Shown here one piece after another: positions 6,901 through 48,400 of a stretch of 64,000 bases of DNA. The translations under genes and the position numbers were made by a program. Position 1 is the stretch's first letter. Every line of letters starts with the position of its first letter. Source of the DNA: Muricea muricata (lineage: Eukaryota > Cnidaria > Anthozoa > Malacalcyonacea > Plexauridae); assembly GCA_963855995.1 (NCBI GenBank), contig OY979717.1:19319906-19383905 (forward strand), written 5' to 3'. A model generated the notes under the pieces. It saw only the letters and a program-made list of their open reading frames with translations. It ran no database searches and was not told the DNA's origin.

Positions 6901-9900
6901 TGTGTTATTTGGCCAACCAAAAACTCTTTTCCGATTGAACAATGAAGCTTCCGTTATATTTTCGGAAGTTATCTAAATGTCACATGACAAAAACACGAAC
7001 AGACTAAAAAAGCAAAAAATAAAAAAATATGGATGCCATATTTGTAGTGCCATATTTGCAGTCAGCATGAAGCCTTGCATCCTGGTAGCAAGTCGCCTGA
7101 TGATAGTTTAACAGTTGCGCAATAAGTAATCCTCATATCCTCAGGGAAATCGTTCTGGCCGCATTTAATAATTGTGCTCTTTTACGATGCATTTAAGCTC
7201 CACTCACTTAGCAAATTCCCCACAGATCCAGGCCGCTGCAAAGAGTACTTCACACATGCCATGTTTTTGTATTGAACCAGTTAACAGATCTGCACTGTCT
7301 AACAGGAAAGACTGGAAAAAGAATGAATTGGTCATCTTATGAAAGAGATGAAAGAAAAAACAAAAAGTATATTGTATGTTGATTATCTGCAGTTTAACGT
7401 GAATATCACGGGAACAGAGTAAACCAATTACTGTGAGCCAGTATTAACCTAACCAAGCCTGCAGAGTTGCAAAAAAGCCACGGGTATTACCCGTGAGGAA
7501 CGTTTGCAAAATGGGCAGTCAGTGAAGAAGGTTTCAAGTCAACAAACTACAATGTATCCTAAACACTAACATAACAAAAAAAAATTATAGATGATGATCT
7601 ATTCCAGAAAATCATGCCTTCTTCGTGAAAAAATATTGATTAATTCTCAAGATTCAATCTGATCTTCAGTTTAGAAAGCCCAACTTTACATCATTTTGAG
7701 GAAGGTTTGCAAACTTTGAAAATTTTACTCGGAGGAAGGTTGAACGCTTTTTGCAACTCTGCAAGCCTGTCAACTAATTTCCCTGTGGGAGAAAACCGGT
7801 GTATCCAAATAGAACCCACGACGTTTGGCAAAGCATTGACTTATAATCATTTCACATGGAATGGTTTAACCACTTTGGCAACGAAATCCCTTTGAAACTT
7901 GGTGACCAAATAGGTCAAATGTAGCTTACCAGACATTGTACAGCGTATGATCTCACGGCTTTCACACGTATGGGAACGTCCAACATTTGAGCAGCAATAA
8001 GTTTCCCATGTCTTGTACCTTCAACCTTTGTCAATTGAATTAATACGTCGATATACCTGCAAATGTTGAACATGTTACATACACAATCTCTTTTTAATTA
8101 GGCGAATTCTTATCGAATATACACTATGTACTATAGTTAATAATAAGTCATATGTTCGAAACGGCTTAGATTAAAGCCCTGTCCCACGATGCAATTTTTC
8201 TTGCAACTTGCAATGCAATTCTACCCTTGGGACATGTAAAATTGGCGAATACAAGTTTCCATCACAGTTTGCTAATATACTTTTAACATACTAAACATTT
8301 GTCACAAATTTACATCTCTTACGAGTAGAATTGCGTTGCAGGTTGCAAAAAAAATTGCACCGTGTGACAGGGCCTTAAGTGTAATGTAAATCACACTTTC
8401 ACTTATCTTGTAAACGAATGTACATAGGTTAAACGGCAAGTATATAGTAATATATATACATTAGTGTTAAGTATTCTCTTCAGGTTTAAATATTTTAACT
8501 TAGTTGTTCAAAGAAAACATATTTGTATGATATTCTATACTTATAGTCTATACTACCGTTAACCGTTAATAAGGCTTCGAACAACCGTCCGCCGATTGCT
8601 TAATGCATGATGGACGGTGCACAAATTGTGACTTTGTCAATGTACATAATTTCGTTTATCGTGTGCGATTAGGATTGAATGAGAGTGAAGCTGAGATAAT
8701 TCAAGCTTGTCACAGGTTGATAAAAAGTATAATTGACTTACCACTCAAAGTTCGTCATATGCTGATAGTCCGACTGACTGCAAATCATAATTATCTTTGA
8801 TATAAGTTCATCTCGGTACCCTGAAAAATAAATAAATTCATGTGTAAATATCAGTCAATAATTTACCCCTCCCTTTTTTTTCAAGCTAGCTCAAATTTTG
8901 ATGGGCATTTTAGCCCCAGTCAACTCAGCCGTGTTTCAAACGCGGAATTTTTCACATATCGAATCTAATGCAAATGAACCTGAACAATGATGCTGAAAAG
9001 TTCGACGTTTGAAATAGACCAGAAAACCTGACTCGCAATTCATATCCTCACTTGATCGAAACATGAAATCTCTCATAGAAACGTGTGTTTTGTTCAACAA
9101 CGTACCAGAGCTGTCACACTTTTCCGTTTGATGGATAAGTTTCTTCACGATATCCATCAAATTCTTTTTCGTCACCTGAAACAACACAAACAGAGAAATA
9201 AAGGCACAGGAAGAATTTCAAACACACTTTCTGCGTTTTACTGCATTACTTGCCAAGTATAAGGACGGCAGGAATAGTCAGGAGCATTATTCAGACAGAC
9301 GAGTCACAAGAAAACCGACCATGGCTGGTCTAGACACACGTGGCGAATTAGGAACGGTTCCCATACTTGTTCGCGGCGAGTTTTTTCACCAACCAATTTT
9401 AACTAAATAGATTGCCGAATTATTATTTTCGCCTCGCGATGCGCTAACAAATTCGCCTAGTAAAAAACGGGCTAAGGCTACTCTCGTACGACAAGGGACA
9501 ATCGAAATGTTCTATCGGATCGCAATCGAAATGTTTTATAGGATCGCATATATTTTTAATACCATTACATTAACTTTCACAGGATTCACTGCATGGTAAA
9601 AAGTGTCAGCAGTATTTTATCACTTATTGCCATCTGCAATTCAGGGGGCACATCATTATTTCCTAATTGTTCATCCATATCGTTATGTCGGATAGTATTC
9701 GACATAACGATACAAGAAAAACGATGCAATTCTGGGCTCACCATTCCAACGATCAGGTCAAGCGCTCTTCTGCGAATAAACTCGTCTTTATCATCAAGAC
9801 ATTGTAAAATAATATCTCTGAAACACAAAAACCATCATATTACAATAATAAAGGCATTTAGTTACACAGAAATACCAAACATGTGTTCAGAGCCAGCAAC

Positions 9901-15900: not shown

Positions 15901-18900
15901 TTCTTAGCTACAAAATTGATATATTGTTCCGTCATTTTCTCCTGTGTTTTGTGTTTGATGTCGTGGTTTGGGTGGCGGGAGAGATAGTCTGCAGGGTCAA
16001 GTGCACCTGATTTGCAGATGATTTTAAAGGTGTCTGGCTGGAGACGAAGAACCCACCTTTCAAATCGTGCCCAAGTTTTCGCAGTATGTTGGCCATAAAT
16101 AACCTCTAAAGGTTTGTGGTCTGTTATTGATGTAAATTCAACACTAAATAAAAATTAACGGAAGTGCTCTACTGTCCAGAACGTCAGTGTATTACTCAGA
16201 AAGTTACATTTGCTTGGGTAAGTCGCAAACCTCTCATTAAAAGTTGTAGTAGACACTTCTCTAAACTCAAGTCATGCTCCGATCGTGCTGCACCAAAAAT
16301 ATGATGCCATGTGCAAAATCCTTGACACCTGTTAACCCTTACAATGTAGTTTAGAGGCGGTATTAGAAAATCTCTGCGGCAGCATTTGTGCCATAGTTCA
16401 GCCTTTTGCCACGATATAGACCCATATGGGTGCTAAAAGTCGTAATGTAACGTGACCGTTCATGCAGTTCTAACTGATAGTACGCTTGACTCAGGTAAAG
16501 TTTCGAAAAATATTTTCTTCCATTTGGGGTTAGACCAAGATCACTTATTGTCGGTATAGGGCGTCGACCTCTTCTTATAGCTTCACTCGGGAGGTGCATA
16601 TCGACACATGCGAACCTGTCCATCTTTTTAAGGATTGCCACTACCTGTATATAGGATACCCAGGGAGTTGCCTCGTTTTCTGGGACTTTTTCAATAATGC
16701 CCTGATTTTGCAGCTCTGTAATTGCGCTTGTTACTTTTTCCGAATGTGGTAGGATACGCAGCGTTTGATTTTATCCCTTTTAGTTTTCCGAGATCCAAGA
16801 ATACTTTTGAATTTCTTTTGAACGTTTTTTTTTATCGCGGCGTCTTTTGGTAACATTTTTCCATATGTAAGTTGATAAGTTTTAGCTCTTGTGCCGTTTT
16901 TTTTGTCTCGATGACCGCCTCGAATTTTTTCAAAAATTCCACAGGCGATGCCATGTTATACGCGAAAGCTTTGTTATGTTTTCCATTTTGCTAAAAGTCT
17001 ACACAAATAGTCCTCATCCAACCTGAACTTGATCCAATCAATCGAAAGTTTATCTGCGATATGATTTAACTCGTTGTTTATTTCCAATGTTTATTTATGT
17101 TGTCCTTAGATCCATGTTTATATGTTTTTGTAATATTGTCGTGTAGGAGCTTGTTGTATGTGTCGAGCGAAGTTTCATATATATTTCTAGTTTTATCAGC
17201 GAAAACGAACATTTTGTCGGATGAGTTGATTCTCTTTAGGTCATTTGCCCAAGTGTCTAGTTGAAAATAGTTTTTTGTGTCTCGAATTCGATTTAATGGT
17301 TTCTAATAATTTTATAATATCTTCTTCAAAAGGTTTCAATTCCAAAACTGTAAGAGGTGCTTTATTAGACGAAAGGCCGAAATTCCTGGTGTTTTCCTGA
17401 CTTTTTTCTCCTTTTAGAAAGGAGATTTCCATCTCATAGGTTTTAGTATACGCTTTCCGCTTTTTCAATAAAATTCTTCAAGTAGTTGTCCCATGAAGGT
17501 ACAGGGATGTTTTTTGAATAGTCCACTCGAAATTGTCTCGTTTTAGCTCATCTGGCTGGTGACTTTGATGACTGCGTTTCTTTCTGTTTTCCGCGACAGA
17601 GGCAAAATGGTTAGGTTTTTGCAATAGTTGCATGTATTCCACGTCCAAAATTTCTGCAAGTTACGCAGCTACTTGCAACGCTACCTGTACGTAGCTTTTT
17701 TTTATTCAGTTTGCTTAGCTCGACACAGTATCCCTCGATATAAAGCATAAATTTCAGTCGTACGAGGGGTCGCGCAATGCTCGCTTTCATATTTTCGTCG
17801 ACGTTCCGCCAAAAATAATATCTTCTTCCAAATCAGCGAATTCGCATGTTTCCGACAATGTACGCACAGACGCGTGTAATATTGATCAAGTGTCTCGTTG
17901 GGTTCTTGTGCTGTTTGTCGGAAACGAATTATCCCTTGGTCAAAATGGACTTTAGCTTTTGTTTTACGATATTGTAGCCAGTGTCAGGTTCAGTCTCTGG
18001 GATTTGTCAAAAAATCACTCGTACTTGGTTTAACTTGATACAACAACAGGGCACGTTTATGCTTGGGATCTGTAATTCCACTTGCCTTTGAAGACATTTC
18101 GAAATCAGTCTGCCACAATTGTTCCATCGAGTGGCTATGCTTGTTCCATGTTTTGCATCTAGACTAAATTCCAGCATCGGAGTAATTGTGATAGATTGCA
18201 TTATCTGTACATGCAGGCGCTGGTTGTTGGGCTTGGTTTTCCTCTTTATGTGCTATCGAAATCTTTAGACTACTCAGTTTTATCCTTGTCGCCAATATAG
18301 CATTTGTTATTTTCACTACGTTCTCATTTTTCGTTGAATATATACACTCCAATAACTACCGTAACTATAATAGACTCTATCTTGTTAAATTACTGCTAAT
18401 CTTGTTTAAATAGTCTTGTTTACTCTCGTTATCCTAGTTATAATTGATATCATTGATACTAATTAGATCACTACACGAATATTGTAACATATACAAGTTT
18501 TTTTGCAAACGCTTTTTACAATATGAGGTCCCAAAGGTGTCCATTTAATATATCTTTGGCTGTATTAAAGACACCCATTTGACCTGCTGTGCTTAATGAT
18601 ATCACCTACCAGATTAGTTACATCATTTGCAAGATCTCTAGCAAGATCTGGGGTGAGAAAACAAGAAAGACCACTCAGAGCAACTCCTGCATCATACATG
18701 TTTGTACTTGCAAGATCCTAGGAAGAACAAATGCCAAGTAAATGGAATATCAGACATCAAGTGAATAATCAGTTAACAAAATACAAGAAATATATGGTGT
18801 AGAGAATTCAGGTCACCCGGTATATAGAAATATTGTACCTTTCTGACCATGTTTGTTGTGAGCATTAAAATATCCAGTTCTTCATGAAAGCATTGTGATG

Positions 18901-30400: not shown

Positions 30401-33400
30401 GGCTAGCGGGGAGTTAGCGGGGGATTAACAGCTTTTTGTTAGCTGGGTCTTATTGGTAAACTGGGTCCCTTATTGGTAAACTAGGTCTTTAGGAAAGTAA
30501 ATGACTGCTTTTGTGGGTAGGGGGCAATACCGGCACATGACAGGGTCTGTACACATTCATAATTTTAAAAGTTTTCCAGGGGTATTTCAAGCTTTCCGGT
30601 TTTTCAGGGTATTCCATGGATAAATTTAGAATTCCGGGATTTTCAAGGGTTTTCCAGGACTATACTAGGATCTCCTAAGGATTTCCCAGGGTTTCTAGGG
30701 GGCGTACGAGCCCTGACATGAGCAGAAGAACCGAAGGCGCGATTCAATTCATTTCTAGTGCTATTAGCTATAAAAACAATATGTTTGGCATACATCATCC
30801 ATTAACTTTCCTTCCACTCGAAGCTCCCACGAAGGTACGATAGAGTCCTCATCCTAAAATGCACAAACAATGCATCAACTGAAAGAAAATAATAGCCGTT
30901 ATACCCAGTTAACAAAATAAGATTTAGCTATAGCAAGTTCTCAATACCCATGCAAGTCCCACATATGACTCGTATAAAAACATGGGAAAGAAATCCTATA
31001 AAATATTTCTGAAATCTTAGCTGGATCAGTTGGCACATAGTTTAAAATGAACTCAATTCGTCGCGCTAATTGAACAACCCATCCCATGCATGATATTGAC
31101 GTGTACATCATTTAATTCAAAACGCATCGTATCTCAAAACGTACCTCAGCGTCAGGTCGAGCACCGTGAAAGTGTGTTGTAAGGAACACTCTTAGTTTCC
31201 GCTTTTGCTAGATGAACAGAATATAAGACACGGCATGATAACCTGAAATGACCTTCGAATACGTACTTTTACTATAGAACACAGAATAGAAAATAAACCG
31301 AATCGTCACTCGGGTCGGACCCTTTGACATTTGTGTAGCAACGCATGTGGCATTACGCATGTTCATTATGCAGGTTCTGGTCAGTCAATTGCATAATAAT
31401 AAGGGGAGGGGGGTGGGGGTGGGGGTGTTGCACAGCTGAGTGACTCTAGAGCTTATTCCTTATACAGCCATAGTAAGTCGTAAAAAACTTTTTATGACCC
31501 TGTTTACACTAGGGCAAAAGTTTCCGGATTCGTAAAAATATCCCGGTTCCTTGTTTTTCAGGTCCACAGCGTTTATACTGCACAGCCTAACACAGCGATT
31601 GTCAATACACGAAGCACCATCGTGATTCTACCAGTCTTATTTTGTGATTTTTTGGCCGATTTTGATAGTTGAAATTAATGGCAATACATTTGAAAACCAT
31701 ACGAGGGAGCAACTTCACTCAAATTCTTTACGGAAAGAGTTTACAAGAGAAGTTTTGTCGGATTCAAACTTTCTCGGATACAAAGATCCCACAAACTTTT
31801 TCGGATTTGAAAGTTCCGGATTCATGATCTATCTGTGATAATTTTGTATCAGATTCATGTTCCTTAGTGTAAACGGTAAAACGAATCCCAAATCAAAACA
31901 TCCCGGATTAGCGACGAATCCGGGGTCTTTTCCCCAAGTGTAAACGGGGTCTATTTCTTTTTAATCTATACAAAATGATGTCACAAGGTATGCGACATAC
32001 ACTGCAATTCTTCAAAATGGAATACTAACGAAAAAGTACGCCCATTTTAATATTTTATGAAGTCGGTCACACATGTCACCCTTGCAATTCGCGATGTTTT
32101 TTCGATGCTTGATTGGTCTTATTCATTCCGTCAGCAAAGTGTCGACTAAGAGTTATACGAAGATCGCGCAAATGAACATTTTCTTATCACTTAATGAATT
32201 ATTTATGATAGACAATTGTGTTTGTCGGAAAATGCTTCACGCCTCCACCCCCCCCCCCCAGAACATGGGCTCACGACACCCCTCCTGCTATATATTCCAG
32301 TGATATCAAGTAATAATCCTTTACAGCTCGAATGGGCAAACCCAGCCTGCTTTTGCATATTTTCAATGTTTCCAAACTAAGCCAAGCCAAGCAATCACCA
32401 GCGGGTTATTCTGACTGATGAACTTCTTCCGGTTATAAATCGAATTAGAGGTCCAAAATTACATAGCCATGAATGTATACTAGTGTATTTTTGTAATGCG
32501 AAATATCCAGAAAAGGCCTCGGTTTCCCTGACCGAGCTTTAATTTCTCAGAAAGTTCTTTCACAAATTAGTTTTAGAAATATGCAAACCAAAGCACACAA
32601 GTTAATAAACTTGGGTACTTTTGTTTGCAAGTTTTAACATTAACATACCGTTGGCGAAATATTAACCATTTCCATAATCAAAACTTAACAAAATCACACT
32701 GCGCTGAACACTCCTTTCGTTCAACTCAATTTGCTGAACGAATACACTTGAGGGATTATATAGGTATTCAACCAGTTTAGATCATTGACGTACATCAACT
32801 GTTTATATCAACTGCCAGAGGAGTGAGGGTCTTCCCATAATGCAACGCGCCGACGGACGGTTCAGTACATATTATCGATTTTTCGTTATGTGTCGTCATT
32901 TTTCGGTTGGCTTTCGTTGAATTCGCAACTCGTGGAATAGCACAAGTAATTTTCGCACATTTTCGCACGGCTATCTTCAAAAGGGGGATCGGGGAATCGG
33001 GGAATCGGGGAAACGGGGAAACGGGGAATCGGGGAATCGGGGAAACGGGGAATCGGGGAATTGGGAAAACGGGAATGCTTTGCGGTTCTCAATTGGAAAA
33101 TAGCCAATTTTACTTGTTAAGCTTTGTGGAAAGTGGAAACACCACGTAAATTTATTATTGCAGAGCTTTCGATCCGTAAGCTCGGATCTTCATCAGTGCT
33201 ATAATAATATGACTATCTGAATTCACACGTCCCTTTTTATACATAAAGTGTCGCGATTGTATGCTCGCGTGATTTAAAAGTTAATTAAACGGTCAAATCA
33301 GCTACGTCATATCTAACGTAGCGAAATGGTTCTAATTAACCCGCATGCGTGCGCAAAGAAGAAAGAGAAATTTAATTTTGCACAGTAAAGAGAGCGCGCC

Positions 33401-36400
33401 ACGTACTATCTAGTGGCTTACCCTCTTGATCTATAGTACTTGGAATTCTTTGCCAACAGATTTGTGTAATTCCGATATGCTTACGGACTTTAAAAATGGA
33501 ATACGCGCTCTCAAATTCTGATTTAGTATTTTTATTATGTTATGATTGCGAATGTGTATATGTATTTTGTTTTATAATTGTTGTAATTTATTGTATAAGT
33601 GTTTGTATACGTATATTTTTATGAGCGATGCCAACACGCCCCTCGTGGAAATCAGCTAATGTTGACGAGGCTAGCGTGTTATTTTAAATAAAGTTTTACC
33701 TTACCCTACCTTACTTTTCCCCAATTCCCCGATTCCCCGTTTCCCAGATTCCCAGATTTCCCCGATTCCCCGTTTCCCCGTTCCCCCTTTTAAAGATAGC
33801 CATTTTCGCACCATTCGTGGAAAACAAGCTTCGCTATCGAAGGAAAACAAGCTTTTACTTGTTCATTGTGTATCAAAACAACCTTTGGTCTTGATTCCTG
33901 ATGGATTACCGTGTGTTGAACTCGAATGTCGTGAAGTTCATGTTAGCTTTATGGATAGTTTGAACGTCAGGAGAATTGCCCTTTTCCCATCGATGGTTAA
34001 AGGCGTGAATATTGACGAAATTTTCGTTGATTGCGATAGTCCTACACTGGTAGAAGTGCATTCTAGTTGTGTTTTTAAGGTAAATAATTTTATAGGTTCA
34101 ATTGTACTGATGGGTTGCATATTATATTGAAACTAGATATTATATATAGTGTGAGAAGTTGAGTGGTCTTTGTATTCATATTGTCATTGTATATTTATAT
34201 ATTGCACACACACTGTACACATGTTTTGTTTAATATTATGTAGTTCTTTGACCCTAATGACCGGCAAGAAGGAGGTGAAAAACTATTCAGTGATATTATT
34301 TTGTGGGAGTGATATTTTATCATATACTCAGATATTGAAGATGATGAACTGGATAATGTACTTCCTCCAGTTGAAGTACATCAGGCAACTGACTGTAGCA
34401 ATACACCCTCCATTTTATTGTTTAACGCCAGAAACAGAGATGTGGTGGATATGCATAGTATGGACACAAGGAACAACTGGATAAGGTATCATTTGGTCTG
34501 GTATGAAGATCAGGACAATGTGGACATATGGTGAACATCTAGAAGTTTTAAACATGTATGGACATGACAAAAAATTGGATGTGGTGCACTATAGACATAA
34601 GGAACCTCTAACAATCGTTGGGTTTTTTTTTGTGTATTTACATTATTTACACACACTCTATTGAATAAGACTAAGTACCAGTACTGACTACCAGTATCAT
34701 GCAGTGGTGGACTGCATAAACCATTTGCAAGGGTTGTGTTATTTGTAAGGTGATGTACAGGCCTCAAAATAGATATAAAAGGTTCACCAGTCACGACTGA
34801 TAAATTATTAAATTTACTTGTCTTGCCTTCTTTTGCTCTCTCATGTGTGTCTATTTGTATTTGTATGTAAAAATGTAGGAAGAAATAATAAAAAAATTCT
34901 TCCATAAACAGGAAGAATAAGGTAACCTTTGAAAGGCAAACAAGAATTTCCACTTATGTGGTACTCTTATCAGTCAGTGACATGTGACAAGCTCATATTT
35001 AATTTGGGGGCTGACAATGTTCAAACAAAACATTAACAATTTAATGTCTATCATGATACTGGCAATTATGTAACAGAAGCATATTAAGCAACATGTGAAG
35101 TATGTGGGGAACTGCTTCATGGTGGGATTTGTTTCATGAACCAGGTTTACTTGTACTGAATGTTCTTCCCATATCCCTAATTTTGTAATTATTGTTGGAC
35201 ATTTTCGATCATTTACTGTACTAATTGATTTAGAAACCATGAGGCAATGAATTTAATATTAATAAAATATTCTTTAAATAAATGCAACGACATTAAAACA
35301 TTTTCAAAGTGTTGCATTACAATCATTCCACCAGTACACATGAATGGTGTATGATGGGATATATGAAAGATGATGCTTTTGCTCTTTATGGAAAAAAATA
35401 CGAGCAGCAGATCTGCATGGGGATTTAAGGTAATGAATCTGGAATGTCATTAGCTTAATATCATTTCTTTCGTGCACGTCCAAGACATGAATATTAATCA
35501 GGAACATTTTTTAACAAAGTTAATAAATGCATGCTAATTAGGATACAGCTGTATCAAAGGTTAAGAATACTAATTAGAACATAGCTTTATCAGATTGTTG
35601 ACCTGTATTGGGGTTTAAAAAGATATCATGTGACATAAATATGGTTCATTTATTGGGTAATTAGCTTATTAATCATTCATGATTTCACAAGAAGTGTTAA
35701 AACATTCTAGAGAAAATACATACTTGGTATGCCTCTAAAATAGTAATCATTTGCATGAACGCATAATGTAATTGTTTGCATGTGCCATCTGATGCCTAAA
35801 GTATTTTATTGATACCACTATTTTTTTACCTACTGCACACTAAAAATAAAAATGTGATGAAATTTAAAGCATGTACTTCAAGTAAAGTATTTTTCCACAA
35901 GTACAATTCAAAACTGGAATGGAATTACGCAGCTGTTACCAGGGGCGGATCCAGGGGTAGTCAAGTCAGTCGTGCGACTTACGTGCAAGATTCATAGATA
36001 ATTAATACTATGTCTGAATCAAGCGGCATTTTCACAATTTCATACGAGTGCCAACTTATTGTAGTCCAGTTAAATATATTCCGGCAGCACGAGTTTAAAT
36101 CGTTACTCTCAAGTCACAGACAGCGGTATTTCACCAAGATCTTGCCGACTCGGGTGGTGGTTTCTAGTCATTTGATTGGTCGAGAGGCCATATTAACTAT
36201 TTTGACTGACCTTTGCGGGGGTCTGACTTAGCTTGCGCAATTCGAAGCTCTCTACAAGCTTTTTAATTGGATGATTTCAAATAACTTTCCACTCTCATTG
36301 GCTCATTTTTTCTGACTGACTTTGCGTGGGGTATCTCAGTCATGATGCTGCAAGTTGCCAATTGGCAAGCTAATTAATATTCAATGATCTCAACCTTGAC

Positions 36401-39400: not shown

Positions 39401-42400
39401 ATTTAGATCTTCGTTGCCAAAAATCGCAATGTATTTCAACTACTTTCTGCCAAGCGTCCATGAAAAATTCTATTTTTGAATATTAATGAGCGCAATGCAT
39501 CCTGGGAAGACCCTCATTCCTCCTCTGATCAACTGCCTTTTAAGGTCATGACCAACTGTCACATGACTTGTACAATGATAGCAATATAATTGAATATCTA
39601 GGAATTTTAAGGCGTATTCAGCTCAAACTGAAACTGAACACAAGCACTTTACACCGGAGTGATCCTTTATATATCTCGAAGGATTTCGACTGTATTGTTT
39701 CACACCACTGCTTATTCTTTAGACCAAACACATAGCAGTATATTTTGAGCTCTAACGATGTAAATAGACTACAAGATAAACTCGTGGTCTTAAATCAATC
39801 CAAGGTAAGATGAAATAGCATTGTAGCACTTGGTTTCGCTGTAAGGGTTTCACACTCACAGTAAACAGTATAAATACTTGTCGAATATCTGTCGTTTAAA
39901 GACAGTTAGCATTATCACGTACTGATCGTGCGTGTGTGCATAGACAATCTAAGGAATGGACTGGAAACGCAAGCTAAAGTTTACGCGACATCCGTGATAC
40001 GCTTTACTTTGGAACCCTGTAACTTCACTTTAAATACATTTCAGGACTTCGTATTTACATATTTTAAACAAGAACAGAAATGTGAATGCAACTATCGACT
40101 TTAAAAACTTTTCAGAGAGATAAACGAGGCGAAAAATCACCATTTAATGTTTCCGTAAACCTTTTTCAACAACAACAATGGCGACATTTCTGCAGTCAAA
40201 AAGAATGCAAACATTCAGCGTTGGGTTTTAGCTTTGTTATATCTATAAAGAATTTTGAAAGTCGATAGTTCCATAGAGATTGCCGTTCTTGTTTAAAATA
40301 TGTAAGTAGAAAGTCCTGAAGTATATTTAAAGTGAAGTTACAGGGTTCCAAAGTATAGCATATCAGGCCGTATCACGAATGTCGCGTCAGCAACATTGAC
40401 ACTTTAGCTTGCGTTTCCAGTCCATTCTGTTGATTGTCTATGGTGTGTGTAAGTGAAGCATCTAACGTTATTTGTTGAGAGTTATATAGTCAGGGAGGCA
40501 GAGGTACAAAAATACATGTGTACTTACCATATCGAGGGACAATTTCATTTTGCTCTTAAATTGTCCGTTACATGCCTAATATAACAATTCTGAATGTTGT
40601 TTGGCCCAATTTTTCTTGTGGGCTCCAGCCAACACGTTTTTTCTTAAAGGGGAACTCCACCCTCAATACAAGTTAGGTTTATATGAAAGGCCTTGTCATC
40701 ACTAGTTCGTGTGCAAAATATTTTGTCTCAATTCAGTTTCGTTAACGAGATATTGTGCGCAATATACCACGAAATTTGCATATAGAAGGTCGCCATTTCG
40801 CCATTATCTGGCGGCGCACAAGTTTTCAGCGGTTTGTTGTTTGACGTCACTGGAGTGCTCGAGTGCTTGAAGTGCTCCTTAAATGCTATAAAGAAATGTT
40901 ATGATCTGTCGCTTCGTGGCAAAATAAGCAAGATTTTGTTTTGCTTTTTTCTTTTCTCATTTGTATTTTACGGAATATGTGTGTCTACGACGTGTGCGGT
41001 TTTAATTCACCAACAATATGATAAAAATATGGAGGAATTAATTCGCTAATGGAAGGGCACTCAACGTTGTGTTATTGTGTTGAAGGACTACGTTTACGGG
41101 AAGCCTCAAGTATGAAATACTCAAGTAAATCGGATTGTCAACGTAAATTGGTCAGCAAAATTGTAAAGCTTTTCCTGTAATATAATATAGAAAATGATGT
41201 GTAGAAAATTATATATACTAATAAAATTATTTCCCCTATACATTGTGTACGTATCGTGTATTGATATATTTGTCGACGGACTGTGTCCAACTTTAATACA
41301 CAACACCATGCCTCACTGTATGGTACCAAATTGTTCTAATGGCTGGCGCAAAACAAAGGGCACAAATATAACTTACCACCGTGAACAGAATAACCACATG
41401 AAGAATGTTTGGCTTCAAAAAATTCGGCGAGACAATCCACGAGAAGTCAAACACTTCTTCGTCTGTAGTGAACATTTTACTCGTGATAGTTACGTTACCT
41501 CGCTGGCTGAGACACTGTGTGGGCATAAGGGGAGAAGGATATTGAAGCCCGATGCAGTTCCAACAATTTTTAAGCATTATGAAAATACACCTAAACCTAA
41601 ACCTAGACTATCAAGTGAAAGGAGAAGTCACACTCGAACAAGAAACGAGGTAAATTATATATGTGTTATATAGGTTAATACAGTTTAAACCCATTATATC
41701 ATACAATATTACAACATACAGTTAAGTTGAATTACTTTTTGATGGCCCTGACACATTCAGAGTAACAAATAAATTTAAGAGCAAGGGTGCAGACCTTAAT
41801 ATTTTGAAAATAAGGGGAGGGGGGTATGTAATAAATATAAGACATGCCAGTTATTTTCCTATAGTGTCTGAAACAGGATAGGCAAGGGGGTTCATCCTCA
41901 CCTCTTAACAGAAACCAAATGTTAACAAAAGGGCTCAATTCTTACATTGCTAGAAATTGGCTTTAGAAAACACCTATTGAACACATAGCAATATTGTATG
42001 ACGATTTTACCCTGAGCGTCTTCAAAATCTATATCTCGCTCGTTATTTAAATTTTGCGCATTATAACACAATTTGCAAACAGTAGCCACTAGCTAGTAGG
42101 TTCGATTACTTCGGTATATACATAAAATGAAAATGCTGCAATATATGTATAGATATATATATACATACACAACTTGACATCATTCTCTAGATTACATTAC
42201 AAGAAAAGCTTTTAAACATTGGTGACTAAGTGCCTGACTTACGTTGAGCGAACTTGGTGTGGTTGGCAATCCGTTTAGATGCATACCATTGACTTCCCAC
42301 TGTGTGAATGTCGTTTCTGCGTGTGTAAGACAGCATTCACTATAACCGCACACGTCGTAGACACACATATTCCGTACAATACAAATGAGAAAAGAAAAAA

Positions 42401-45400
42401 GCAAAACAAAATCTTGCTTATTTTGCCACGAAGCGACAGATCATAACATTTCTTTATAGCATTTAAAGAGCACTTCAAGCACTCGAGCACTCCAGTGACG
42501 TCAAACAACAAACCGCTGAAAACTTATGCGCCGCCAGATAATGGCGAAATGGCGACCTTCTATATGCAAATTTCGTGGTATATTGCGAACAATATCTCGT
42601 TAACGAAACTGAATTGAGACAAAATATTCTGCACACAAACTAGTGATGACAAGGCCTTTCATATAAACCTAACTTGTATTGAGGGTGGAGTTCCCCTTTA
42701 AATTTTCTATAAAACTATATTATTGTCAAAAAAGGCGAAATTTCGGACTTATTTCTAGGAAAAACCACTCACGTTATCAAAAAGGTAATAAAAACGACAT
42801 ATAACACATTATTATGATTACTTTTATTTTCCACATTTTTGTTGAGTTATGAGTGTTCGAAAACTTATTTTCAGACTAGTGCCCAGGAAATTAGCGTCAT
42901 TTTAGGACATTTTCCCGTTTTGAAGCAGCAATAACTCGAAAACAGCTTGAAAAACCAGGGTGTCCGTAATGATGTCTTATATGTTGTTTTTTATAAGCTT
43001 TCTGATGATACAAGTCATTTTTCAAATGAATGAACTTGAAAGTTTGCTATTTTTGACCACATAATAGTTTTATAATAAAACTGAAGAAAAACGTGTTGAT
43101 CAAAGCCCTCAAGATAAATTGGGCGAAACAACATTCAGAATTGTTATATTAGGCATGTAATGGACAATTTAAGAGCAAAATGGATTTGTCCCTCGAGAAG
43201 GTAGGTAAAATTACCTCTGCCTCCCTGACTAATATAATATAACAAATTTGAAGCTTCATCACTTGAAGCTTTGACTATTTGGAGCATTTCCAGAAACTTA
43301 AGGTTTTCTCGAAAATACATCGTCGTATATAGCAACATACAGTTACAGTACCATATAGAATGCGCATACTGAAAGGAGCCTTCTTTGTGCATGTGCTGAT
43401 GTACTGAGAGAAGTACTTAATGTTGCTTGGCATTCTTGCTGTCGTATAGCGAAATTGTGGTAACTATACAGGGCGTATAAAAAATGAACAAATTTGGAAT
43501 CGCTCTCAACGTCGGGAAGCGAAGAGAACAAAAGAGCAAGGATTTTGATTTATTTCCCTGTACTTCTACAGTCTATTAAAGTCGAAATGTCAGTTTCTTG
43601 GCCTAGGACAATATACAATGAATATGTTAATGAATATTTTTCGATCGTTTTATGCACAAAAAGTGGCCACAAACAAGTGACGTCAATCGCTCGCTTTTAA
43701 CCCCCGCTCCGTTTCCGCCTCCGCGTTTTATCTTACCCCGCTACCTCGGAGCGTAAAGGCCCTGGCACACGATGCAATTTTTCTTGCAACTTGCAATGCA
43801 ATTCTACTCTTGGGAGATGTAAAATTGGCAAATACAAGTTTCCATCAAAGTTTGCTGATGTATTTTTAACATACCAAATATTTGTCACAAATTTACATCG
43901 CTTAAGAGTAGAATTGCGTCGCAAGTTGCAAGAAAAATTGCACCGCGTGACAGGGCCTAAACGAATTTCATACCGGATTCGGCTGATGCTGCACTACGCC
44001 ACAGTAATCCGGTATGCTCGAGCTCCGCGTAATAGCAGGTGATACGAGAGCAGTGTAAAGGGATCAATCGGATACACAAATAATTCTAGTGCCAAATTTC
44101 TAATGCAAATCACAACCTAAAAGCCAACTCGAGATTTTATTTAGCAGAAAATTGGCTCTGTTTGAAAAGCAACATCAAAAAGTGCTGAGCTAGCAAGCGT
44201 ACACAGACTTATTTTTTTTTTTACCTTGCTGTGAACTGGGGTGAAAAGTAATCATAAGAATTAGTTTTTCTTACGAAAAGTTCTAATTTCAATTAAACGC
44301 ATTTGTGTCTCTTGGGAGTTGTATGCAAATTATGCATGCACAACGCCGATTTTAGATATGCAAATGTTCTGAAATTTTTAACATTTACGCCACACCCGAC
44401 ATATTTTCTACCCACCAAGTCAAAATTACTTTTAAGCATTAAAGTTTCCTGTGCAAGCCTTACATAACTTGCTGTAAGAGACACAACCCCCCCCCCCCCC
44501 GTCCCCGGGTTTGAAGTTTTAAAATTTCTACGTTTTCCGGTTCCTTCTACATTACAATACCCAAACAATCTATTTCAAAGCATCGCACGTTAAAGCACCT
44601 CACGAAGAAAAGAAAGATTTCAAATTTGTTTTAGTTACTTTCTACATCCTGTAAATTGATAACGCATCGACTCCACGTAAATGACATATTAATAATTATA
44701 AAGGTGTTGAATTTTTAGAAACACAACTGTCTCATCAATATTTTTAAAAAACACATTCATTTGATGCAAATATATCTCCGATCTTCAATTTCATTTTGTG
44801 TAATTTCATATGAACAGAAAATGGCGTCTTCTGTCTACAATCCTGGTTACGAAGATGAACTCTTTGAATATCCAGTTGGTCCGAGCTTGCACTGTTGCAT
44901 TTGTACCAACGTTATCAAAGATCCAGTCATGTGTCCAGACAATGAACACTTATTTTGTCGAGCCTGTATTACCAGACATCTTATGAACTCTCAAACATGC
45001 CCAACCTGCATGGAGCCACTCACCGTGGAAACAATGAAACAGGCGCCTCGTGGGGTACGAAACATGATTGCTGAATTGAAAATTCGTTGCGAATTCTTCG
45101 ATCGAGGTTGCGAAGAATTCGTCCAGCTAGGAGATATTGAAAGGCATGTTGCAGAATGTGGTTTCGCCCCCGCAGTCTGCTCCAACGAAGGATGTCAAGT
45201 TGAAGTGAATAGACAAGATTTACTCCATCATGAAACCGTTATGTGTGAACTACGCATAGCTAAATGTCACAGTTGTAATGACATAAGACGAGAGATCGAT
45301 ACGATGAAAGGTAGTTTGGCAGCCATAAATGAGAAGTTAGACAAAAACGAGAAAGACTTAAAAAGACTGGAAGAAAACCAGAAAAGCGTTTTGGAAAACG

Positions 45401-48400
45401 TCAAACAAGTGAAGGAGAGCCTCGACAAGCAGGAAGAAAATAACCGTCAGCTCAGAGCGGACAACGCTGACATAAAGAAAAGTTTAAAAGAAATCATGAC
45501 GCGACTGCAACTGGAACGAATACCAGAACCAACATCGAATGAAGTGGAGGCTGAGGAAATAAGCACAGGAGTTGCTGAGGATCGTGAAGGGGACGAAGAG
45601 ACGAAGGTTATTATTGCCGGAGGGGAGAATGTAAATTTTGTAGAAATGTTCAATCTCGCAACTAAAACCTGGACACCGCTTCAGCCAATGAATAAACGTC
45701 GCACTGAAGCATCTTCAGTCGTTTTCAACAATCAAATCGTTGTCACTGGGGGTGGATTTGAGTCCATGGAAAAATTATCATTGAATGCTGTTCATGTTGA
45801 CCCCTCTCTCCCTTGGGAGAACATCCCTCATATTAAGCTACCTGCAAAATTCGGACACTGCAGTGTCGTCTATAATGGACGGTTTATAATGATTGGAGGT
45901 TTTTGTTCTTTTGACGGTTCTGACAATATTACCGAGATTTCCCTTGTTCCACCTTATACAAGCAAACATTTAGCTACCATGCCACGAACCAGATGTTATC
46001 ATGGTGCTGCAATTTTTGGTGATAAGATTTTGATCGTTGGAGGCAAGGAAACTACCATATCTTTCGAACCTCTCAGAAGTGTTGTCATGTACGACATTAC
46101 TAACAACAAATTTCAAGAGTTAGCGCCCCTACCTTACGCTACATGCCAAATGGCCACTGTGAAGTGGGATGATGACAACATTATGATACTGGGTGGCAAT
46201 GTCAACGGCAGAGCAACAGCCAAAGTAGTAATGTACAACATCAAGACCCAGAGCAGTCGTGAATTGCCTGACATGAAGTATAAGCGGAAAGGATGTTCGG
46301 CTGCAGTTCTCAGAGACACTGTAATCGTAATGGGTGGTCAAGATGAAAGTCGAAATTCCTTACAATCAGCGGAATGTTTCAGGTTTGATCGTAACAGCTG
46401 GGAAGAGCTTCCACCAATGCACAAGGCAAGATACCAAGCTACAGCAGTTGTATGTTAAACATAATAAATGTCTTTTATCCAGGAATGTAGAAATTAAAGC
46501 TTTTAACTTACTGTTCAATTAGTGAACAATGACGTTCATCGCATTTTTTATTCAAGATCAATGTTCGTAGGGATGACTGCATAGCTGCATACACACATAC
46601 ATTCGAAAATTTTCAGCTGGGAAAAGCATGGCAAACATTTGTAGCTACATTTCCAAGTGAGATCATTAAAAATAAAAATGGAATGAAATTTGAGTAGCTA
46701 CAATAACCCTAGTCTTACACGAACAGGTGTTTCACAACGTTATTTGTACATTACGTTATTCTAGTTGCTTAGTACGTTATTTTCAATGTTTATTGTATAT
46801 AACAGCATTTTTTTGTAAAATCACGATATTGATCATGTAATAACCGTATACAACGTACATAGAAAAAACGAATTACTGAATATTTCTCTCGAGAAATTCC
46901 AAATTTTAGCAAGGTTTATATTTTACTTCCACTACGACTGTAAAAGAGGAATCGTTAACGAATCAGTTTAACCATACTACACTGTATGCACGGCCGTGCC
47001 AACCGATATTTTATATATAGGGAGGCGGGGAAGGGGCAGAGACAGCATTCTGAGCCCCGTCATACAGTCGCCGTTTATGTGGTTACAGCATAATGTAAGA
47101 GGAATACCGAGCTTATCTCGTTTTTGGGGAAGGGCAAATACTGAACACTTTATGGGATGAGAACTTTACTGCTGATATCGTTTTCAATTTGACTATTGTG
47201 AAAACTTTGGGGAAACGACCACTTTTACGCATTACTCAATTATACACGAAACCTATAAACTCTGCGAGGTTACAGCATATCTCTCACGCTTCTCAGGATT
47301 TCGCCACCAAATACTGCATTTTCACTAATTTTATTCGTTGTCGTTTTCGAGAATCTATTATGCAAATTGTTTATTACTGCTCTTACAGCAGTGTTACAAG
47401 GCTATATTCCACATTTTACAACATTTTGCCGACAAACATTCTTATTTTACTAATTTCACCATGCTTTGTCTAGCTGTGGTGCCCGGTTATTCTTTATTAT
47501 ACAAAATATTTCTTTTCGTAAAATTTAATACACTAGCTTACTGGATTTTCGCGGATCAAAATGGCAAAAACCATGCGTTGACAAACATCGTGAAATTAAT
47601 TAAAGCCGCGCAAAATTAAGAACGCGAATACGGTATTTCAACCCATTTAACACTGTTTTAGGCGAAGAAGACTTAAATTGTATTAGGCTTATCCGGATTA
47701 AAGCAGGTGAATCACATGAATGATCCTACTAGCCTAATAATTTATGCCATTATATCATGCGATCAGATCAGTACGTCTGCATGTTATACGATTTAGTTTT
47801 TACGTTTTTTTTCGCTGCATTGCAAAGGTATTAATTTAAAATGACGATATATATTAAAGGCTTACTGTCATACCATAGTATTGCGGGCTCAATTTGTTGA
47901 TGGCCCCATTTTGTCTGACGAATTACGATCGATATACAGTAAACAATATTTTTCCGTTAACCAATCTACCTGATTAGTCTACATGATTCTTGGTGATATT
48001 AAAGCAAACAAATTATTTTTGAAAATATTTTTAGTTTTCGACAAAATAAAGCAGCACGTAAACATAGTGTGTAACTCTCTTCTTTGTCGAAATATTCCTT
48101 ACGGATCAAATACAATCGAGATTACAAAACAAAAACACAACCTGGGACATCCCACAGCATAATGACTTTGGAACGTTTTCCACATGCAGTATTGCAAACA
48201 AAAAGAAGACCCGGTGATTAAAGTGCCTATGACACGAAAATTTTTATTGTTTTATTTGAAAGAGCACGAAAAAATAAGCGGATTGGCGGTTTACAGTAAT
48301 ACACTATCTCTTTTAGTTGCTGAGTTATTCACAAAAATATGAATAATACGAATTGCTGACTCAGCACAATTTGTGACGTCATTAGATGGATAAGTATGTT

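Follow-up and report, generated by a model that had tools for sequence, protein, structure and literature searches.

A THAP-bearing non-autonomous Kolobok element nested in a foldback MITE of Muricea muricata

Two independent DNA transposons almost certainly account for the concentric inverted repeats found in a 64,000-bp window of the Muricea muricata genome (C2:19319906-19383905; genome of 453 Mb in 74 contigs): a 692-bp foldback MITE and a non-autonomous Kolobok of the Kol0 type that struck it later. Self-comparison of the window places the inner element, 40644-42701 with its flanking TTAAs, within the outer foldback (Table 1), and the inverted arms of both are too long and too alike to be the product of chance. 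That there are two elements, the inner being the later arrival, follows from uninterrupted outer copies with one TTAA at the point where the window copy is split and from inner-type copies lying in unrelated flanks. As a case of transposon nesting the locus is ordinary, but its documentation is unusually complete: the nesting and the uninterrupted copies fix the order of arrival for one pair of transposon families, and the THAP-only element is tied to transposase-bearing relatives within the same genome.

Table 1. Features of the nested locus (window positions).
Feature	Position	Strand	Remarks
Left 3-bp target duplication (ATA), outer MITE	40484..40486
Outer foldback MITE	40487..43231		692 bp when uninterrupted; TIR TAGTCAGGGAGGCAGAGGTA; split by inner element
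Left TTAA target duplication, inner element	40644..40647
Inner element, non-autonomous Kolobok (Kol0 type)	40648..42697	+	ends AGGGG...CCCCT
Left long TIR, inner element	40648..41004	+	361-nt arm including TTAA
THAP exon 1	41308..41673	+	121 codons unspliced; PF05485, E 8.5e-16; donor of long copies after ...RTRNE
Deletion junction	42001..42003		exon-2 acceptor, transposase exon and most of KolX gone
KolX gene-start stub	42004..42070	-	about 20 codons; base missing just past the ATG shifts the frame (compared with L039 and L040)
Right long TIR, inner element	42341..42697	-	partner of left long TIR
Right TTAA target duplication, inner element	42698..42701
Right 3-bp target duplication (ATA), outer MITE	43232..43234

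Nesting of the two elements

The outer element pairs through terminal arms of 20 nt (40487-40506 with 43212-43231, 100% complementary) followed by arms of 121 nt (40521-40641 with 43087-43207, 88%). The first-pass annotation had recognised this foldback but set its ends at 40491 and 43227, which have to be moved outwards to 40487 and 43231. It had also noticed that the outer arm resumes to the right of the insert and pairs again with its partner. This is correct (42708-42814 pairs with 42967-43074 at 71%), except that the arm resumes at 42702 instead of 42698 when the duplicated TTAA is counted once. The resumed pairing is explained by the end-to-end foldback of the uninterrupted copies, which spans the full 692 bp at 73.6-74.4% in the three genomic copies tested.

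A similarity search using the part of the outer element right of the insert as query, with the best 40 of 1,187 candidates scored, yielded at least 40 full-length places, one of which is the window copy. Nineteen of the 39 other places listed were fetched; every one of these copies is uninterrupted (691-692 bp) and has one TTAA in the alignment column that corresponds to the split of the window copy, in agreement with the nesting and the order of events proposed at first pass. The 3-bp flanks are identical on both sides in 19 of 20 outer copies, window included, the exception being L066. Genome-wide, the 20-mer of the outer end has 309 exact occurrences, against 0 for its reversed control. Mean pairwise divergence is 1.15% among the 19 copies and 1.99% between them and the window copy, values probably biased low since the 19 were taken from the top of the ranking by similarity to the window copy. 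The latter also carries the most private substitutions (8, against a mean of 2.6 in the others). The outer element is thus short (692 bp) and non-coding, exists in many near-identical copies, and has TIRs and a target duplication of fixed length, as MITEs do. PIF/Harbinger elements generate 3-bp target duplications of the TWA type. Membership of the outer MITE in this group was considered and is not supported: the duplication is indeed 3 bp long in 19 of 20 copies, yet of the TWA type in only 5 of 19. No long element with the ends of the MITE was found among the best 40 of 1,187 candidates scored or at the one of the 309 end-pattern places considered.

The limits of the inner element given at first pass, its TTAA duplications and its THAP reading frame could all be confirmed, the frame opening with the ATG at 41308. 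Including both TTAAs the element measures 2,058 bp, and its arms (40644-41004 and 42341-42701, 361 nt) are 98% complementary. Both ends were checked in 13 inner-type elements, the window copy among them, and 12 of these have TTAA on both sides, in differing flanks; the exception, L035, is missing its right end, and L043, cut off on the right, lies outside this count. Although the two repeat sets are concentric in the window, we give hardly any credence to a single composite transposon moving as a unit, which is ruled out by the absence of the inner part from all 19 fetched outer copies and further contradicted by the other flanks of the inner-type copies examined, with their own TTAA; constant association of inner and outer repeats was not seen among the genomic copies examined.

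As two independent transposons, the elements came together in two steps, both of which the uninterrupted copies show. The 692-bp MITE entered the chromosome with duplication of a 3-bp target, and the non-autonomous Kolobok then entered the TTAA at MITE positions 158-161, duplicating it in turn. Most likely, the inner copy would have been mobilised by the transposase of longer relatives with the same ends.

Internal deletion and transposase-bearing relatives

Kol0 elements encode a transposase plus a second protein, KolX, that resembles the P2X7 ballast domain and from which this domain likely originated, according to the description by Kojima and Bao (2022, PMC9587614). Alignment to two longer relatives, L039 and L040, identifies the inner element as a Kol0-type Kolobok with an internal deletion. 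It matches them in two blocks (1-1359 and 1359/1361-2058, at 93-96%), between which about 2.8 kb has been lost relative to L039 and about 3.6 kb relative to L040. In these alignments the derivative still has its ends, the 5' leader and the THAP exon, along with most of intron 1. It has lost the acceptor of exon 2 and the exon encoding the DDE transposase, and of KolX, on the opposite strand, almost nothing is left. L039 is 4,933 bp long with TTAA on both sides, and its gene model joins the THAP exon (PF05485, E 4.2e-18) in frame to an open second exon of 665 aa, for a total of 777 aa. In L039 this second exon begins at base 1,401, downstream of the breakpoint near base 1,370, which places the splice acceptor in the part missing from the window copy. 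The first-pass description of a Kolobok-like element having THAP without a transposase therefore fits both the PF05485 match and the restriction of the transposase exon to longer relatives, and L039 provides the transposase-bearing version of the inner element that it had proposed searching for.

The derivative evidently multiplied after the deletion, to judge from the distribution of the junction. Among 40 scored candidates out of 49, at least 11 places, window included, align throughout 41680-42340, whereas the alignments of longer copies are interrupted at a single point of this region. The exact junction pattern recurs in 7 of the 9 deletion copies tested. L035 differs from it by one base, and the junction string was not found in L037, whose place still aligns across the junction at 97%.

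Seven transposases of this genome have in common the invariant residues D322/D326, D389, D410xxH413 (DVWH at 410-413) and E537, as well as H469, H474, C485 and H487. Based on published motif descriptions, these would correspond to the catalytic residues and to the H2CH motif. Pfam returned only sub-cut-off matches for the long-copy transposase, to MULE and, in L040, to Mutator as well, and no solved structure resembling it was retrieved at E values up to 1. Genome-wide, Kol0-type transposases are diverse: at least 73 matches were listed (67 of 1,457 candidates scored), most with about 48-56% identity to L039. Twelve of the 73 listed, L039 included, cover at least 500 residues with no internal stop; consequently, elements able to supply transposase may be present in the genome.

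The opposite strand of L039 contains ORFs of 94 and 148 aa, the larger of which matches P2RX7_C (PF20478, E 1.4e-8) and P2X7 structures (E 1.3e-4). KolX of L040 matches PF20478 with an E value of 8.1e-5 and 23.1 bits, just below the Pfam cut-off of 23.5. The KolX/P2X7-ballast gene characteristic of Kol0 is hence found in the long relatives only. Elsewhere, four KolX (P2X7-ballast-like) fragments lie on the same strand at C1:110313899, 110319385, 110324871 and 110330357, spaced by exactly 5,486 bp, a regularity that suggests tandem repetition of a 5.5-kb unit with a Kolobok fragment in it.

The retained THAP exon

Most likely, the THAP frame is not a working gene but was spared by the position of the deletion. 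Barring a regulatory role, the THAP match at this locus would have to be annotated as what remains of a transposon, and not as a gene of the host. Variation in the frame was assessed in an alignment of nine deletion copies, leaving aside L048 and L049, which have the junction but are broken up.

These data also bear on a regulatory explanation that we consider unlikely, in which a THAP-only protein would bind the ends shared by the family and compete with the full transposase, like the KP protein. According to PMC7776569, repressors can be made from P elements with internal deletions, the 207-aa KP protein being one. Six of the 9 aligned copies have an open frame; in the other three (L031, L037 and L043) it is broken, and where open it stops at about 121 residues, so that exon 2 and any dimerisation region therein are missing. 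Variable columns are scarcer inside the frame (9 of 366) than elsewhere in the element (94 of 1,692; Fisher p 0.012), which might point to retention of the frame, and the deficit is stronger against the non-TIR parts (p 0.004), but not significant against the TIRs plus leader (p 0.12), all three comparisons being post hoc. The changes themselves, 5 silent and 9 replacing, several of them shared by descent and one a stop, reveal no protein-level constraint, and the pN/pS of 0.38 among the nine 2.06-kb copies is based on few changes. This ratio amounts to 0.57 within the long copies and 0.59 within the foldback arms of the family described below, the changes within families being too few to distinguish from neutrality, to 0.66 between 2.06-kb and long copies, and to 0.25-0.28 when the foldback family is compared with the 2.06-kb and with the long copies.

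Retention of the THAP exon in both arms of a second non-autonomous family speaks for the regulatory explanation as well. This 2.36-kb foldback family of Kolobok type (L041, L042 and L071-L075, seven copies examined) has in each arm a stretch corresponding to the initial 930-1,020 bases of the window element, with identity of 78-83%, rising to 86-88% over the terminal 360. The arms, of about 1.1 kb, are 94-97% complementary in 6 of 7 copies; those of L074 pair in two blocks at 91-92%. The THAP frame is clean in both arms of two copies (L041, L042), in one arm of three (L071, L072, L073) and in neither arm of two (L074, L075). By its alignments the family is a related non-autonomous form that likewise retained the THAP exon. 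Deletion derivatives keeping this exon might, improbable as we find it, constitute a self-limiting arm of the family, spreading while their THAP-only protein competes for the ends and holds full elements in check. The 2.36-kb family would then be a second instance, and the whole a Kolobok counterpart of KP in Drosophila. If THAP-only copies had such a regulatory role, P elements would not be alone in limiting themselves through truncated transposases.

Affinities of the inner element and its surroundings

Kolobok elements duplicate TTAA and have 5'-RR and YY-3' ends, a rule that separates them from piggyBac, which duplicates TTAA too, as laid out in PMC9587614; their transposases combine DDE, THAP and H2CH features according to PMC6004289. 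The inner element shows the TTAA duplication, RR/YY termini directly adjoining it and, through the gene model of L039, a THAP domain in the transposase. Assignment to the P superfamily, whose transposases also start with a THAP domain (PMC7776569), or to piggyBac, given its TTAA duplication, is very improbable: the duplication is TTAA and not the 8 bp of P elements, the AG...CT ends obey the Kolobok rule, and the long copies possess a KolX-type gene.

Within Kolobok, this kind of element, with the Kol0 layout, is already published. L039 and L040 agree with the Kol0 lineage, as presented in PMC9587614, in TTAA, RR/YY ends, a THAP-bearing DDE transposase and KolX, while the window copy departs from it in having 361-nt TIRs and in the loss of the exon for the transposase and of almost the whole of KolX. 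The Xenopus T2-MITEs are similarly non-autonomous and of Kolobok type, with TTAA targets and AGGRR ends, in the description given in PMC6004289; the window copy is longer and retains a THAP exon. Like KP and other internally deleted P elements portrayed in PMC7776569, it is non-autonomous and keeps the N-terminal, THAP-coding part. Unlike KP, it has TTAA instead of an 8-bp duplication, encodes 121 residues compared with 207, and would have at most a putative repressor function. Galileo also has long foldback-like TIRs and a transposase with a THAP domain but belongs to the P superfamily (PMC3688188), whereas in the 2.36-kb family the THAP exon sits within the repeated arms.

Other repeats are found in the window. 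An inverted-repeat element at 39939-40442, with arms of 129 nt (85%) and 42 nt (93%), stops some 40 bp short of the left end of the MITE. A 206-nt repeat occurs in two copies that are 91% alike (43752-43963 and 8173-8378), the former with inverted arms of 76 nt (86%). An 8-bp GGGGAATC-type unit forms an array (32967-33089 and 33716-33806), the inverted partner being about 0.65 kb off. A 135-aa frame at 16363-16770 (minus strand) gave no Pfam match at E values up to 0.01; by eye, we take it to resemble a reverse-transcriptase fragment. About 1.5 kb right of the MITE, an open frame of 579 aa (44719-46458, plus strand) with RING/U-box-type and kelch matches is probably a host gene.

Outside the window, the 19,292-bp contig C74 (L076) looks like the mitochondrial genome: cox2- and atp8-like ORFs lie on one strand and a cox1 ORF on the other, one TGA being read as W. 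We presume this strand arrangement to be reminiscent of medusozoan cnidarians. At C1:38414782-38416095 there is another cox1 match, almost complete and with one TAA, which is perhaps a nuclear copy.
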